From a virus: 23,582 bases of DNA. The notes under the pieces were generated by a model. It did no database searches, was not told where the DNA came from, and saw only the letters and a list, made by a program, of their open reading frames with translations. The DNA is taken from positions 1 to 23,582 of the IMG/VR virus record IMGVR_UViG_3300027852_000169; one strand, 5' to 3'. The position numbers and the translations under genes were made by a program. Below are positions 10,381 to 21,779 of the stretch, piece after piece. The first letter of the stretch is position 1. Each line of letters opens with the position of its first letter.

Positions 10381-10384
10381 ATGA
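10283..10384 (+). CDS. Possible 33-residue leader peptide overlapping the GroES-like start
   Basis: The frame reads MSPRAPQGERRRHPAPFTLE and continues Arg/Pro-rich to a TGA that overlaps the next ATG as ATGA. The coupling geometry is the one used throughout this genome, and the following gene lacks its own ribosome-binding site. Against it, the composition is what random GC-rich sequence would give, and no Shine-Dalgarno site precedes its own ATG. Confidence 0.25.
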   Translation: MSPRAPQGERRRHPAPFTLEARRRGGRTPFPTP

Positions 10385-10725
10385 ACTACAAACCCAAGCA
10401 CAGCTACGTGCTCGTCCAGCCCTACGAGAAGACCACCCTGATCGAGGGCCTGGACGGGAAGAGCCTGAATGACCCCGGCTCGATCACCCCCTGCAAAGTG
10501 GTCGCCGTCGGCCCGGGCATGATCCAGGACGGCGCGCTGATCCCGGCGTGCTGCGAGGTGGGCGAGGTCGTGATGGCCAACCTGCACTCCGGCATTCCCA
10601 TCGAGGACCCCGACCGTGGGCTCTTGTTCCAGCTGATCGACATGCACGTCACCGTCGAGCTCGAGGGCTTCGACCTCCGGGCCTGGAAGCCGGTGATGAA
10701 ACTCCCCTCTGACCCCCGCGAATAG
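10381..10725 (+). CDS. GroES-like (Cpn10) co-chaperonin
   Basis: A 114-residue product with the GroES order of elements. There is an N-terminal strand (HSYVLVQPYEKT), a loop of about 20 residues where the mobile loop would be (residues 17-34, containing TTLIEGL), PCKVVAVGPG at 37-46, EVGEVVMAN at 59-67 and a closing strand LIDMHVTVEL at 85-94. Compare the E. coli GroES pattern 'RGEVLAVGNG…VKVGDIVIFN…ILAIVE'. About 20 extra C-terminal residues follow. Phage co-chaperonins such as T4 gp31 cap the host GroEL ring to help fold phage proteins, typically the capsid protein. Sequence similarity is modest, so the family call is probable rather than certain. No chaperonin large subunit is in the window. 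The start has the context CCAACCCC-ATG with no Shine-Dalgarno. Confidence 0.6.
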   Translation: MNYKPKHSYVLVQPYEKTTLIEGLDGKSLNDPGSITPCKVVAVGPGMIQDGALIPACCEVGEVVMANLHSGIPIEDPDRGLLFQLIDMHVTVELEGFDLRAWKPVMKLPSDPRE

Positions 10726-11135: not shown

Positions 11136-11777
11136 ATGCCCAAGACCATGAAGAAGCGCTTCCACGTCATCGCCACCCACGACCTCACCCACGACCTCAC
11201 CGTCGAGGGCCGCAACGGACCCAACACGTACAGATCGGTCACAGTCCCCAGCGGAACCCATGGGTTCGTTGACGCCACCATCCATGACCTCGACCCCCAG
11301 GGGGAGTTGGAAGAGTTGGACGTGACCTGGGACCTGGTCGTCATGGGGCCCCGCCGAGACCCGGGCCTCGACAGGCGGGGCGACCGCCGGCGCGTCAGCC
11401 TGAGCACCAAGCTGCCCTTCGACCCCTGGGGGATCCATCTCCAGCACGTCGAGACCGACACCGAGTACAGCGAGCGCGCCCAAGTGGGGCGCCTGGCCAA
11501 CGCGGTCGCCGCCGTCCTGGGCTGGATGCCCGGCCACGATGGCGTCATGGTCACCAAGGACGACGAGCCCGAGATCGAGGAGCTACGCCAGGCCGCGCTC
11601 CCCTGGTTCCCCAACATGGAGGACAGCTTCCCCACGGTGGACGAGGACGGCAACACCATCCCCGGGACCGGCGGGGTGCCGCTGGACGACGTAGCGGCCG
11701 AGCCCGGCGGGCACCTGGCCGCCGCCTGCGACGAGGAGACCGAGCGCCTGGCGCGGGAGGCCGGCTCCGATGAGTGA
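11136..11777 (+). CDS. Hypothetical protein upstream of the recombination genes
   Basis: A 213-residue product starting MPKTMKKRFHVIATHDLTHD. Its beta-type N-terminal 110 residues (RSVTVPSGTHGFVDATIHDL, DVTWDLVVMG) are followed by a helical stretch (ERAQVGRLANAVAAVLGWMP) and a long acidic C terminus. No family is recognised. The start has the context CACCCTTCAACCACCC-ATG directly after the candidate pseudoknot. It overlaps the YqaJ exonuclease gene by 8 nt, so it is probably co-expressed with recombination and may be an accessory protein of that system. That is inference from position only. Confidence 0.65.
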   Translation: MPKTMKKRFHVIATHDLTHDLTVEGRNGPNTYRSVTVPSGTHGFVDATIHDLDPQGELEELDVTWDLVVMGPRRDPGLDRRGDRRRVSLSTKLPFDPWGIHLQHVETDTEYSERAQVGRLANAVAAVLGWMPGHDGVMVTKDDEPEIEELRQAALPWFPNMEDSFPTVDEDGNTIPGTGGVPLDDVAAEPGGHLAAACDEETERLAREAGSDE

Positions 11778-12738
11778 GTGGCTCGCGCGCCGCCGGAGCG
11801 GAATCACCGGCACCGACATGGCCGCCATCCTGGGGGTCCACCCCTTCAAGTCCGCCCTCGAGGTTTGGGGGGTGAAGACCGGTCGGCTTGACGAGAAGGA
11901 CCTGGGCCACCGCGAGGAGGTCTACTGGGGCAACGTGCTCGAGCCCGTCGTCCTGGGCGAGTACCACCGCCGCACCGGTCGGGTGCCCCTGATGCGCCAG
12001 CGCTGGGCCATGGAGGGCCGGACCCTCCTGCAACTCCAGCACGACGACGGGCCCAAGGTCATGCTCACGCTTACCGACCAGCCGCACCTCCTGATGACCC
12101 CGGACGACATGGACGAGGCCTGGACCCCGGTGAGTTGGCTGGAGGAGCAAGTGGCCCATGATGGGCCCGGCGTGGTCGAGGCCAAGACCACCAACTACTT
12201 CGGGCTCAAGGAGTGGCAGGACCAGGCTCCCCTCTACCACCAGGTCCAGGGCGCCTACAACGCGGCCGTGGCCGGCGTGGAATGGTTCGCGGTCACGGGC
12301 CTGATCGGAGGCCAGCGCCAACTGACCTACGACTACGGGCTCGAGGCCGACAAGGCCAACTGGCTCCTGGACCGCGCCTCCCGCTTCTGGCGCGACAACG
12401 TCGTAGGCGGGAAGGAGCCCGAGATCCAGCGCCCTTGGGAGTTGGACATCTGGACCAAGCTCCACCCCAACGACAACGGGGAGTGCCTCACGCTCTCGAC
12501 CGACGAGGACGACGAGCTCACCTCGAGGATGCTCCGCACCGACGCCGACCTGGTCGCGGCCAAGTCCCTGCTCAAGGAGACCGAGGCCAGGGTGGCCGTG
12601 CTCCAGCTGGGCATCAAGAAGACGATCCGGGACTCGACCTTCCTCGAAATGCCGGGCCACTTCCGCTACTCGTTCAAGACCCAGGAGGGGCCACACGGGC
12701 CCTTCCGCATGCTGCGCCGCAAAGGCCTGGAGAAGTGA
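11770..12738 (+). CDS. YqaJ-type viral recombinase exonuclease (PD-(D/E)XK)
   Basis: A 322-residue product. The opening WLARRRSGITGTDMAAILGV (residues 4-23) is the standard start of the YqaJ/lambda-exonuclease domain ('R…GIGGSDAAAILG'). Predicted catalytic residues follow in order: E58 in WGNVLEPVV, D103 in TLTDQPHLLM and the E137-x-K139 of GVVEAKTTN. The Gln/Tyr motif after the core is PLYHQVQGAY (residues 154-163). This 5'-3' exonuclease class resects double-strand ends to make single strands for an annealing protein. The C-terminal 80 residues are helical and may mediate partner binding. The next gene, three bases downstream, is a candidate for that partner. The ATG is preceded by GGGAGG nine bases upstream and overlaps the previous gene. 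Confidence 0.88.
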   Translation: MSEWLARRRSGITGTDMAAILGVHPFKSALEVWGVKTGRLDEKDLGHREEVYWGNVLEPVVLGEYHRRTGRVPLMRQRWAMEGRTLLQLQHDDGPKVMLTLTDQPHLLMTPDDMDEAWTPVSWLEEQVAHDGPGVVEAKTTNYFGLKEWQDQAPLYHQVQGAYNAAVAGVEWFAVTGLIGGQRQLTYDYGLEADKANWLLDRASRFWRDNVVGGKEPEIQRPWELDIWTKLHPNDNGECLTLSTDEDDELTSRMLRTDADLVAAKSLLKETEARVAVLQLGIKKTIRDSTFLEMPGHFRYSFKTQEGPHGPFRMLRRKGLEK

Positions 12739-12740
12739 CC

Positions 12741-13604
12741 ATGGGAAGCCAACAGTTCAGAGGCGGGGGCGGCCTTGTCCCTCAACCACAAGCCGCGGCC
12801 GTTCAGGCCGTGCACGATGAGTCGAGGTCTGCCGAGGCCGTCGCCCTGGCCCGCGCACGTTGCGAGCTGGCGATCATGCAGCCCCGGGACGAGGATCGGG
12901 CGGAGAAGCGAGCCTTGAAGGCCATGCAGGACCCCCTGCAGGCCGAGCGCGCGACGTGGCGCTTCCCCAGAGGGAACGAGGAGTTGACCGGGCCCAGCGT
13001 CCGCCTGGCGCGGGAGATCGCCCGGGTCTGGGGGCACATCGACAGCGGCACCAAGGTCCTCTCCCAGGATGATCGAGAGGTGCACATCGAGGGCTTCGCC
13101 TGGGACCTGGAAAGCGGCCGGCGCGTGACCAAGCAGGCCCGATTCAACAAGAAGATCCCCCGCAAGGACGGCCAGGGGAACACCTACTGGAAGGAGCCGA
13201 ACGAGCGGGACTTGGACGAGCTGATCGCGCGCCGCGGAGCCAAGCTCGAGCGGAACGCCATCCTCGAGCTCATACCCGACGGCATCATCGACAGGTGCCT
13301 CCATGAGGCCGAGCGGACGCGGCGGGAGGGGGCCCGGGAGCTGGACCCCATGGTGGCCTTCACCAAGGCCGCGGGCGCCTTCGAACGCTTCGGGGTCACC
13401 AAGGACCAGCTGCTCGAGTACGTGGGCGAGGTCTCCACGGAGAGCGTCATGCGCCTGCGCGAGGTCTTCCAGTCGATCCTCCAGGGCAACGCCGAGCCCA
13501 GCGAGTTCTTCGCCAAGGGCGACGGTCCGAAGGAAGAGAAGGCCTCCGAGCCCACCCAGGAGCGCCCGGAGACCCTGGACGACCTCTGGGGCAAGTCCGA
13601 GTAG
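12741..13604 (+). CDS. Putative single-strand annealing protein, partner of the exonuclease
   Basis: A 287-residue product with GGAG eight bases before its ATG. The N terminus is flexible (QQFRGGGGLVPQPQAAA). The core reads NEELTGPSVRLAREIARVWG (79-98), HIDSGTKVLSQDDREVHIEG followed by FAWDLESGRRVTKQARF (99-135) and ELIARRGAKLERNAILELIP (160-179). I recognise the phrase 'TGPSxRLAExxAxxWGxxxxGxxEL…EAYAWDLETxxR' as a widespread phage family found beside YqaJ or other exonucleases. Its position supports a RecT/Erf-like annealing role in two-component recombination. The family is usually annotated hypothetical, so function is inferred. The C-terminal 45 residues are acidic and disordered, ending TLDDLWGKSE, a possible SSB- or exonuclease-contact peptide. 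Confidence 0.65.
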   Translation: MGSQQFRGGGGLVPQPQAAAVQAVHDESRSAEAVALARARCELAIMQPRDEDRAEKRALKAMQDPLQAERATWRFPRGNEELTGPSVRLAREIARVWGHIDSGTKVLSQDDREVHIEGFAWDLESGRRVTKQARFNKKIPRKDGQGNTYWKEPNERDLDELIARRGAKLERNAILELIPDGIIDRCLHEAERTRREGARELDPMVAFTKAAGAFERFGVTKDQLLEYVGEVSTESVMRLREVFQSILQGNAEPSEFFAKGDGPKEEKASEPTQERPETLDDLWGKSE

Positions 13605-13610
13605 AAGAGC

Positions 13611-13645
13611 GGCCGGCTCCCGGAGCTCGCCTCCCGGGGCCGGCC
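13611..13645 (+). promoter_or_regulatory. Strong hairpin in the 77-bp gap before the replication gene
   Basis: GGCCGGC (13611-13617), one bulged T, then CCCGG (13619-13623) pair with CCGGG (13634-13638) and GCCGGCC (13639-13645). This gives a 12-bp stem with a 10-nt loop. No T-tract follows, so it is not a classical intrinsic terminator. It lies nine bases before an ACCCATGCA element and may separate recombination from replication expression or protect mRNA ends. Confidence 0.5.
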
Positions 13646-13681
13646 TGCCACCCATGCAGAGCGACAAACGAACACTAGCAC

Positions 13682-14617
13682 ATGACCACTTCCTGGACCC
13701 CAGAGAACTACCCTTGGTTCAAGCTCTTCCCCAAGGACGTGCTCTCCAGCGCGCGCTTCGCCGGCATGAGCGCCGCCCAGCGAGGGATCTACTGCACCCT
13801 CCTCTTCCGGTCCTGGGTCGAGGACGGCCTCCCCGATGACCCGGACGAGCTGGCCCTCCTGGCCATGGTCTCCCCCGACGAGCTTGCGGAGGCCTGGCGC
13901 TGGCCGCTCATGGGCGCGTTCTCGATGAAGGAGGACGGCCGCATGCGGAACCGGCGCCTCGAGGTCGAGCGCTCCCGCGCCACCGAAGAGCGGGATGCCA
14001 GGTCACGCGGAGGCAAAAAGTCCCCTCCCAAGCCCACCAAGCCACCTAATCCCACTCGGAAGAGTCTTCCAAGTCACTCGGAAGACTCTTCCAAGTCAGC
14101 CGGCGGAGACCCATGTAAGGAGAAGGAGAAGGAGAAGGAGAATTACCCCCCAACCCCCCTTGCCAGGGGGGCTTCCTCTTTGGATTTGGCGGGGGAGCTC
14201 GCGGCCCTGGCTAGCTCGCGCTTCACCGGCGGGCGCCTGGTGCGCGCTGGGGAAGCCGCACAGCGCACGTGGGCCACTCAGGTCCTGGGAGTCAGCGGAG
14301 GGGCCGATGTTCCCTTGGCGGTCTGGCGGAGGACCGTGGCGCGCCTGCTCGCGGCCGGGTCTACCCGGTGGCCATCGGTGAACGAGATGGCCGCCGAGTT
14401 GATCCGGGTCCTGGAGTCCGCGGCTACGGGTGCCCCGCCCCTCTCCAGGGTGATCGAGTCCGCCCGCGCCGGCGAGGGGTCCTGCTCCCAAGCCTTAGAC
14501 CAGGCCGGCATCCCCTGGAAAGAGCCGAGCTTCCTAGAGAGCGACCCCAGGCACGTGGCTGCCTGGAGGGCCCACCAAGCCATCGCCCGGATCATCCGGG
14601 AGGACACAGACCGATGA
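13682..14617 (+). CDS. DUF1376 replication protein (candidate initiator, origin in linker)
   Basis: A 311-residue product. Residues 8-105 match the DUF1376 pattern: ENYPWFKLFPKDVLSSARFA, then MSAAQRGIYCTLLFRSWVED, GLPDDPDELALLAMVSPDEL, and a Trp-containing helix. DUF1376 is a winged-helix-type domain at the N terminus of phage replication proteins. A low-complexity linker (about 106-166) contains RKSLPSHSEDSSKSAGG and a KEKEKEKE run. The C-terminal 145 residues are helical, as in helicase-loader or initiator partners. The linker DNA carries tandem palindromes and a purine tract, as in lambda O. The ATG at 13682 begins the recognisable domain; an earlier ATG at 13654 is out of frame. No Shine-Dalgarno is visible. 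It overlaps the next gene by ATGA. Confidence 0.8.
   Translation: MTTSWTPENYPWFKLFPKDVLSSARFAGMSAAQRGIYCTLLFRSWVEDGLPDDPDELALLAMVSPDELAEAWRWPLMGAFSMKEDGRMRNRRLEVERSRATEERDARSRGGKKSPPKPTKPPNPTRKSLPSHSEDSSKSAGGDPCKEKEKEKENYPPTPLARGASSLDLAGELAALASSRFTGGRLVRAGEAAQRTWATQVLGVSGGADVPLAVWRRTVARLLAAGSTRWPSVNEMAAELIRVLESAATGAPPLSRVIESARAGEGSCSQALDQAGIPWKEPSFLESDPRHVAAWRAHQAIARIIREDTDR
14054..14097. repeat. Tandem 22-bp repeats with nested palindromes (candidate origin iterons)
   Basis: Copies at 14054-14075 and 14076-14097 differ at a single base. Each contains a 13-bp palindrome, GGAAGAGTCTTCC at 14058-14070 and GGAAGACTCTTCC at 14080-14092. The second is the exact reverse complement of the first, so the pair also forms a perfect 13-bp inverted repeat around AAGTCACTC. 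Because 22 is not a multiple of three, the copies are read in different frames of the gene. Selection for DNA sequence rather than protein repetition is therefore likely. Confidence 0.85.
14117..14142 (+). repeat. (AAGGAG)x4 purine tract
   Basis: Four perfect copies of AAGGAG plus AA give a 26-nt all-purine run, encoding the KEKEKEKE part of the replication-protein linker. It starts 20 bp after the palindromic repeats. Strand-asymmetric purine tracts beside iterons occur in lambdoid origins. The run could also simply be microsatellite expansion. Confidence 0.9.
14154..14171. repeat. C6/G6 hairpin next to the purine tract
   Basis: CCCCCCT (14154-14160), loop TGCC, AGGGGGG (14165-14171) is a perfect 7-bp stem with a 4-nt loop, within the same linker-coding DNA. 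Confidence 0.8.
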
Positions 14618-14988
14618 GGACCATCAAGACCCGCACCGCGATCAAACTGCTCCGCCTAGCCATGGATCGGGGGCTCTTCCCCGAGGCAGAGATCCAGGTG
14701 GCCCTGGCCGAGCTGCAGGGCCTGGATGCACCGGGCCAGCTCCCCCCGACCAAGCGGGGCCTCGAGGTCCTGCGCGGAGTGCACGAGCACCGCCGCCAGG
14801 CCGGGCTCTCCCCCACCATGGCCGAGCTCGCCGCGAAGCTGGGCGTGAGCCGGCCGACCGTGCACGAGCACCTTCGGATCCTTGTTGAGCGCGGTCACCT
14901 CCATCGCACCGGCCCAAACCGGTCTCGGAACTACCTACTGACCCAGCGAGGCCTCCTGGCCCTGCATAGCACGAAGAGGACAAGATGA
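14614..14988 (+). CDS. LexA-like winged-helix regulator without protease domain
   Basis: A 124-residue product beginning at an ATGA overlap with the DUF1376 gene. Residues 46-109 follow the LexA DNA-binding pattern: TKRGLEVLRGVHEHRRQAGL, then SPTMAELAAKLGVSRPTVHE, HLRILVERGHLHRTG and a basic wing NRSRNYLLT. The helix-turn-helix is at about 68-88. LexA itself continues into an S24 autoprotease; here the chain stops about 15 residues after the wing. It therefore cannot respond to DNA damage by self-cleavage. An extra N-terminal 45-residue helical segment is present and may dimerise. It is a plausible regulator of the divergent region or of the host SOS regulon. Its target is unknown; the dyads at 8204-8239 do not match the classical CTGT-N8-ACAG LexA box. 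Confidence 0.8.
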   Translation: MRTIKTRTAIKLLRLAMDRGLFPEAEIQVALAELQGLDAPGQLPPTKRGLEVLRGVHEHRRQAGLSPTMAELAAKLGVSRPTVHEHLRILVERGHLHRTGPNRSRNYLLTQRGLLALHSTKRTR

Positions 14989-21501: not shown

Positions 21502-21779
21502 TGGCCAGCGACTACGGCCCGAAGTCCTACGTCGAGCAGAGCAAGCGGTCCTGGTGGCGCGACGGCGCGTTGCTGAACCCCGACCTGCAGGTGGGGTGCC
21601 TGCAGCGGATCGCGGACGCGCTCGAGAAGGACCGTGGATCGTGGGACCGGATGGTCTCGCAGCGTGACTACCAGAGGGGTCGCGCCGAGCGCCTCGCCGA
21701 CGACCTCGAGACCGAGCGTCGCCGGGTGGCGTACTGGAAGGGTCGCGCGCGCAAGCTGGCGCGGGAGGCCCAAGCATGA
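21501..21779 (+). CDS. Small basic helical protein upstream of SSB
   Basis: A 92-residue product starting MASDYGPKSYVEQSKRSWWR, with AGGAGG seven bases upstream and a one-base overlap with the previous stop (TGATG). It is Arg/Trp-rich and mostly helical (VGCLQRIADALEKDRGSWDR, YQRGRAERLADDLETERRRV, then AYWKGRARKLAREAQA). No motif is recognised. It overlaps SSB by ATGA, so it may act on single-stranded DNA or with SSB; that is inferred from position. Confidence 0.65.
   Translation: MASDYGPKSYVEQSKRSWWRDGALLNPDLQVGCLQRIADALEKDRGSWDRMVSQRDYQRGRAERLADDLETERRRVAYWKGRARKLAREAQA

Follow-up and report, generated by a model that had tools for sequence, protein, structure and literature searches.

We infer that positions 14053-14171 of the window (the whole stretch of DNA analysed here, IMG/VR virus record IMGVR_UViG_3300027852_000169, a linear fragment of 23,582 bases) are very likely the replication origin of this phage, embedded in its own initiator gene in a lambda-like manner, with an initiator from an unrelated family. 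The gene concerned, the ORF at 13682-14617, was assigned to DUF1376 based on a match to Pfam PF07120 of 33.1 bits over residues 11-95, against a cut-off of 30.1, and it also matched the PHROG "primosomal protein" families 9327 and 3992. AlphaFold predicted a winged-helix-like domain at about residues 14-115, with helices and wing strands and a pLDDT of about 90, then disorder and a helical C-terminal part of poor prediction quality; pLDDT was mostly <50 at residues 131-189. It counts against our reading that the predicted winged helix rests on weak structural matches: those of the DUF1376 family model had Z scores up to 6.1, and Foldseek returned no match at E <0.001 for either model. The features are as follows:

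11770-12735: YqaJ/RecE-like exonuclease, upstream of the DUF1376 gene (Pfam/PHROG).
13682-14617, + strand: DUF1376-family replication initiator gene, 311 aa, with the candidate origin within its coding sequence (Pfam, PHROG).
13712-13966, + strand: DUF1376 domain, predicted winged helix and presumed iteron binder (Pfam residues 11-95; AlphaFold).
14027-14176, + strand: disordered-linker codons, for residues about 116-165, which hold all origin elements (AlphaFold pLDDT).
14053-14074, + strand: iteron unit 1, CACTCGGAAGAGTCTTCCAAGT, with dyad GGAAGAGTCTTCC (14058-14070) centred at 14064 (sequence, shuffles).
14069-14081, + strand: third dyad, CCAAGTCACTCGG, with 5/6 arm matches, centred at 14075 between both units (dyad scan).
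14075-14096, + strand: iteron unit 2, CACTCGGAAGACTCTTCCAAGT, with dyad GGAAGACTCTTCC (14080-14092) centred at 14086 (sequence, shuffles).
14117-14140, + strand: (AAGGAG)4 tandem 6-mer, T-free on the top strand, a candidate strand-opening or helicase-entry tract (sequence; relatives).
14154-14171, + strand: 7-bp C/G hairpin, CCCCCCT-TGCC-AGGGGGG (sequence; modest hairpin enrichment in relatives).
14614-14988, + strand: next gene, an IclR/LexA-like winged-helix protein, not a helicase or loader (Pfam, PHROG).

Pfam and PHROG scans also identified a phrog_3657 protein encoded upstream of the DUF1376 gene and an SSB gene at 21776. The gene at 14614-14988 overlaps the initiator gene by ATGA, and no DnaB, DnaC, P or other helicase or loader was recognised among the window ORFs scanned with Pfam, PHROG and further scans. 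A small gene at 10381-10722 has weak similarity to the co-chaperonin GroES/Cpn10.

Elements in the linker of the initiator gene

A first-pass annotation of this DNA had described two tandem 22-bp repeats with one mismatch, each containing a 13-bp palindrome, followed by a purine tract and a 7-bp C/G hairpin, and had placed them in the linker of a replication protein. Each of these elements was found again, at 14053-14096, 14117-14140 and 14154-14171, and all of them lie within codons 124-163 of the ORF, where disorder is predicted in a protein matched by primosomal families. The two units are identical at 21 of 22 positions, and GGAAGAGTCTTCC and GGAAGACTCTTCC, each made of two 6-bp arms and one central base, are exact reverse complements. 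The annotation had overlooked the third dyad, and with it the centres at 14064, 14075 and 14086 stand at an exact 11-bp pitch with 17/18 arm matches. As a control, synonymous codons were permuted within the gene, preserving protein and codon usage. None of 5000 such shuffles reached 17/18 for the 11-bp dyad triple. With steps set to 8-10 or 12-15 bp the score was at most 12, and non-overlapping sites in the rest of the window reached 13 at best. Likewise, the 21/22 direct repeat was reproduced in none of 2000 shuffles and no second repeat of its kind (lag 13-59) occurs in the window, in agreement with the earlier argument that repetition in the protein cannot explain a repeat whose length of 22 bp is not a multiple of three. 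The palindrome count alone is unremarkable, as 132 of 2000 shuffles have three or more.

The (AAGGAG)4 array lies directly 3' of the iterons and has 50% G+C in a 68% G+C genome, being purine-rich and T-free rather than AT-rich. The hairpin starts no more than about 45 bp past this array and folds as DNA at -9.1 kcal/mol with a z of -1.45, which is weak by itself. The order of parts is therefore iterons, tandem 6-mer, hairpin. We compared the window with a criterion for the DUF1376 protein family (a DUF1376 match), three for DUF1376 in-gene origins (linker dyads at 11-bp pitch, a T-poor tandem 5-7-mer 3' of them, a hairpin shortly after that array), one for the GTTSAAC iteron class (a GTTSAAC iteron), and one for lambda-type in-gene origins (a helicase-loader gene as neighbour). 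The first four were met. The GTTSAAC criterion was not, the iteron core being GGAAGASTCTTCC with no GTTSAAC array in the window gene, nor was the neighbour criterion, the next gene being a winged-helix protein; many relatives meet the latter.

The annotation had suggested that an origin here should show repeats that persist in relatives while the linker drifts, and that a skew minimum elsewhere would speak against it. No close kin of the window phage were found when viral contigs were searched with the DUF1376, YqaJ and phrog_3657 proteins, or when genome contigs and phage records were searched with the DUF1376 protein. No other viral contig scanned has the palindrome pair in its exact form. 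As such, conservation of the window iteron was not directly testable, and the DUF1376 family was tested instead. Cumulative GC skew turned near 8 kb with no signal at 14 kb; since coding changes strand at this same turning point and only a fragment is on record, the skew gives no support.

In-gene iterons across DUF1376 genes

The E. coli Rac gene ydaU served as a bridge to the family, from which two family alignments pulled 160 viral loci. Together with named phage genes these gave 99 non-redundant DUF1376 genes, 98 of them long enough to test; the genes are mutually related, and each was measured against its own shuffles. Across the 98 genes, self-similarity of the DNA in and around the linker peaked at lags 11 and 22 and at lags 7 and 14, well above synonymous shuffles, and part of the genes had peaks at lags 6 and 12. 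The commonest iteron was the dyad GTTSAAC, found 2.44 times per gene versus 0.49 in shuffles and at 3.28 per kb in the gene versus 0.17 in the flanks. Spacings of 11 bp (68 pairs), 22 bp (27) and 33 bp (7) accounted for 102 of the 112 close pairs, where about 2 would be expected. The sites concentrate in the linker, with further clusters within the N-domain coding region. GTTSAAC-like 11-bp arrays of the latter kind were seen at codons about 55-70 in L015-L094 and about 36-48 in L095-L174; extra sites or autoregulation are suggested as options for their role.

The dyad occurs in all three reading frames (84/79/76), and where it encodes the peptide NxRSTxV, the serine codon is TCA in 59/59 cases and the arginine codon CGT in 58/59, whereas both are minority codons in the remainder of these genes (background 0.19 and 0.17). 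This three-frame use and the near-invariant codons indicate that the DNA, not the peptide, is under constraint, so that the expected persistence of repeats in a drifting linker was borne out at the level of the family. An exchange of iteron type accompanies certain changes in the N-domain. In a subgroup of viral DUF1376 genes whose N-domain ends in AGKRGAAKRW instead of AGKASA (L154, L155, L158, L163, L168), GTTSAAC is replaced by CCCCTAAT-type repeats spaced about 12 bp apart. In E. coli, ydaU alleles with about 93-100% identical C-terminal DNA have either a DUF1376 N-domain with TGTTCAAACA-type iterons or an unrelated N-domain (MASNWIKLEV...) with GTTAC/GTAAC iterons. Recognition of the iterons by the N-domain would predict such co-swaps. 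We considered and rejected the idea that all DUF1376 genes keep a strict 11-bp pitch, in view of the spacing of about 12 bp in the CCCCTAAT-type class, and a clear array is lacking in some DUF1376 genes, such as that of a Rhizobium phage. Two ydaU genes with a broken linker were also observed: in E. coli 95-3192 (L181:610-1478) the gene is frameshifted and its C-run tract altered, and in E. coli M6 (L179) additional coding sequence separates the two halves.

Downstream of the iterons, the DUF1376 genes carry tandem 5-7-mers (AACCAAT, GATACA, AGAAG, AAGCCAG, AAGGAG) above the level of synonymous shuffles, and these arrays are T-poor on the coding strand (0.12 versus 0.21). The hairpin varies in sequence, being GCTACGC-TTAGCA-GCGTAGC in phiLM21 and CCTTAGAGGC-TGAA-GCCTCTAAGG in Azospirillum phage Cd. 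Within 0-45 bp downstream of the tandem array, hairpins were stronger than in shuffles (p 5e-6); the control stretch 120-165 bp downstream itself gave p 0.02, and we therefore regard the hairpin effect as real but modest, a weaker enrichment than that of the iterons or tandem repeats. Only the position of some hairpin, and not its sequence, is a general family trait. The C-run/C-run/G-run form of the hairpin as a family-wide element was rejected: it follows the tandem array in only 5/99 genes (the window, ydaU, a Bordetella phage, L067 and L064), and 9/99 genes have a C4..G4 hairpin at any position, versus about 6 expected.

Independently of the family alignments, viral contigs were scanned without any protein reference for three GTTSAAC at 11-bp steps, which gave at least 120 loci. 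Among the 120 matches listed, 96 arrays were inside DUF1376 genes, 90 of these after the N-domain, in the linker; 14 were in linkers of Lin1244_N-type genes and 10 in neither family. The commonest iteron array is thus observed to be confined to these genes. The assignment of the second family to Lin1244_N (PF14297) comes from the one representative scanned (56.7 bits). Like the window, the GTTSAAC-type viral genes of both families have a linker with an 11-bp iteron array, tandem 5-7-mers poor in T and a hairpin; they differ in their iteron core, GTTSAAC instead of GGAAGASTCTTCC. In L186, L209, L222, L227, L236, L239, L243, L252 and L255, all of the second family, GTTCAAC iterons at 11 bp in the linker are followed by AAAGTAAAGT-type repeats, and the Lin1244_N-type N-domain had no match to the DUF1376 HMM built in this analysis. 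GTTSAAC 11-bp arrays were also seen outside any recognised initiator gene at L182:9138-9166, across which no long ORF runs, and at L242:4196-4246, which has five copies.

Comparison with lambda, Rac and Bartonella

The lambda origin lies inside gene O, where dyad-symmetric iterons and then an asymmetric tract stand between the DNA-binding and partner-binding domains (PMC6022878). The likeness to lambda proposed in the first-pass annotation holds in part: the window also has dyad iterons followed by an asymmetric tract, at an inter-domain position within the initiator coding sequence. The parts themselves differ: in place of four 18-bp inverted repeats the window has dyads at an 11-bp pitch, its tandem 6-mer stands where lambda has an AT-rich region of 39 bp, and the next gene is not P. 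Homology to lambda O was not met either, since Pfam and PHROG scans gave DUF1376 and primosomal families. The candidate would therefore work like the lambda origin without being a member of the gene O family.

Rac ydaU of E. coli K-12 resembles the window in being a DUF1376 gene with linker iterons, an A-rich tract and a C/G hairpin; it differs in its TGTTCAAACA-like iterons. It is followed by the dnaC-like ydaV, a dnaC paralogue. The next gene is DnaB-like or DnaC-like in several phages with a DUF1376 gene, as in Rac, and one relative is a DUF1376-DnaT fusion with a C-terminal DnaT domain. For Rac, an origin named oriJ is reported to be active (PMC3945230); a placement of oriJ in ydaU would be conjecture.

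A stronger replication anchor than Rac for origins of the DUF1376 type is Bartonella, where the replication and amplification peak of run-off replication (ROR) was mapped to one gene cluster (PMC2697382, PMC3610622) and "gene 4" of the region has palindromes inside the gene (PMC3610622). The corresponding cluster of B. koehlerae has the order YqaJ exonuclease, 129-aa protein, HTH-like gene, DUF1376 gene (51.3 bits) and Toprim/DnaB-like helicase, which matches that of the mapped peak; the DUF1376 gene stands directly upstream of the run-off-replication primase-helicase (L306:6203-10269), and a published B. australis table places a 390-bp gene at the position of the 129-aa protein. Based on this order and size in B. 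koehlerae, we infer that the published gene 4 is the DUF1376 gene. The statement in the first-pass annotation that no mapped origin was known for a DUF1376-type initiator consequently has to be withdrawn, insofar as the run-off origin was in effect located and the inferred identity of gene 4 is correct. The B. koehlerae linker has an 11-bp repeat, TTCAACGACTG-CTCAACGAGAG, matched by 19 of 1000 shuffles, which counts against our reading. It also contains a purine tract, as well as GAAACACC-TCAC-GGTGTTTC, a hairpin. Bartonella thus shares with the window a DUF1376 gene, in-gene palindromes, an 11-bp repeat (TCAACGA), a purine tract and a hairpin; it differs in iteron sequence, in its co-option by a bacterial chromosome and in an imperfect tandem array, and it has a phage-type primase-helicase downstream of its DUF1376 gene. 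A second, weaker DUF1376 match was identified elsewhere in the B. koehlerae genome (L304).

Alternative readings and a proposed role for DUF1376

Could the pattern be a by-product at the protein level, arising from codon bias or slippage in a low-complexity linker (KEKEKEKE, S/P-rich) with no DNA function? Linkers tolerate tandem duplication, (AAGGAG)4 reads in frame as KEKEKEKE, the number of palindromes is ordinary given the protein, and a single 22-bp tandem duplication alone could give much of the window pattern, which counts against an origin. We nonetheless consider this very unlikely, based on the logic that neither 22 nor 11 bp is a multiple of three, so that successive copies are read in different frames, and that protein-preserving shuffles did not reproduce the window repeat or the dyad spacing. 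At the family level, nearly invariant codons and three-frame use largely refute it.

Equally, dyads have the typical shape of operators and a winged-helix gene directly follows, raising the possibility that either this neighbour (14614-14988) or the DUF1376 protein itself binds them to control how the replication operon is transcribed, instead of initiating replication. To this we give little credence: some 370 bp of the gene precede the array, 13600-14700 yielded no promoter-like site, and in E. coli ydaU the array changes together with the N-domain; for a tandem 5-7-mer and a hairpin, moreover, an operator has no use. Were the initiator to act in addition as a repressor of its operon, this would be compatible with an origin. 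Nor does the hairpin, although CCCCCCTTGCCAGGGGGG followed by CTTCCTCTTT scores as terminator-like, make a convincing intragenic terminator or attenuator in place of an origin element, as its tail is not a T run, the gene runs on for about 150 codons to an ATGA overlap with the next, and relatives preserve a hairpin at this place behind the tandem array with a different sequence; we regard this explanation as very improbable.

We therefore retain the reading as an origin, which has its support in the family evidence and not in the window alone. The family claim is stronger than that for this single phage because for the window the iteron differs from GTTSAAC, relatives are not known, neither a helicase nor a loader was recognised in the fragment, and the skew is uninformative; the window is best described as a divergent member, with a different iteron and no helicase gene found, of the DUF1376 in-gene origins. 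In the absence of binding or replication data, the mechanism is inferred. We consider it most likely that the winged-helix DUF1376 domain would bind the dyad array with one site per helical turn (11 bp), that the bound dyads would form an initiator complex like the lambda O-some, and that this complex would strain the adjacent T-poor tandem 6-mer tract until it opens. The C-terminal domain would then recruit the replicative helicase or its loader, and the hairpin may delimit the opened region or serve as a loading or priming site. On balance, we lean towards DUF1376 and Lin1244_N being one large class of phage initiators that share an in-gene origin grammar (11-bp dyads, T-poor 5-7-mers, hairpin), with GTTSAAC kept across both Pfam families and in many phages, and the grammar surviving a complete change of iteron in the window.

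Proteins of the DUF1376 family, which includes YdaU of E. coli K-12, occur commonly in prophages under the label "protein of unknown function". No origin is described under the name DUF1376 in the papers searched, which did not cover subscription papers, and one paper that mentions it gives it as a protein of unknown function. Our results give the family a concrete, testable role as an origin-binding initiator, make the exact origin predictable from sequence alone in hundreds of phages, and point to a candidate site for the run-off origin feeding the gene transfer agent of Bartonella. In addition, GTTSAAC at 11-bp steps is a DNA signature by which initiator genes may be found without protein similarity, and the natural swaps of N-domain and iteron are material for working out recognition.
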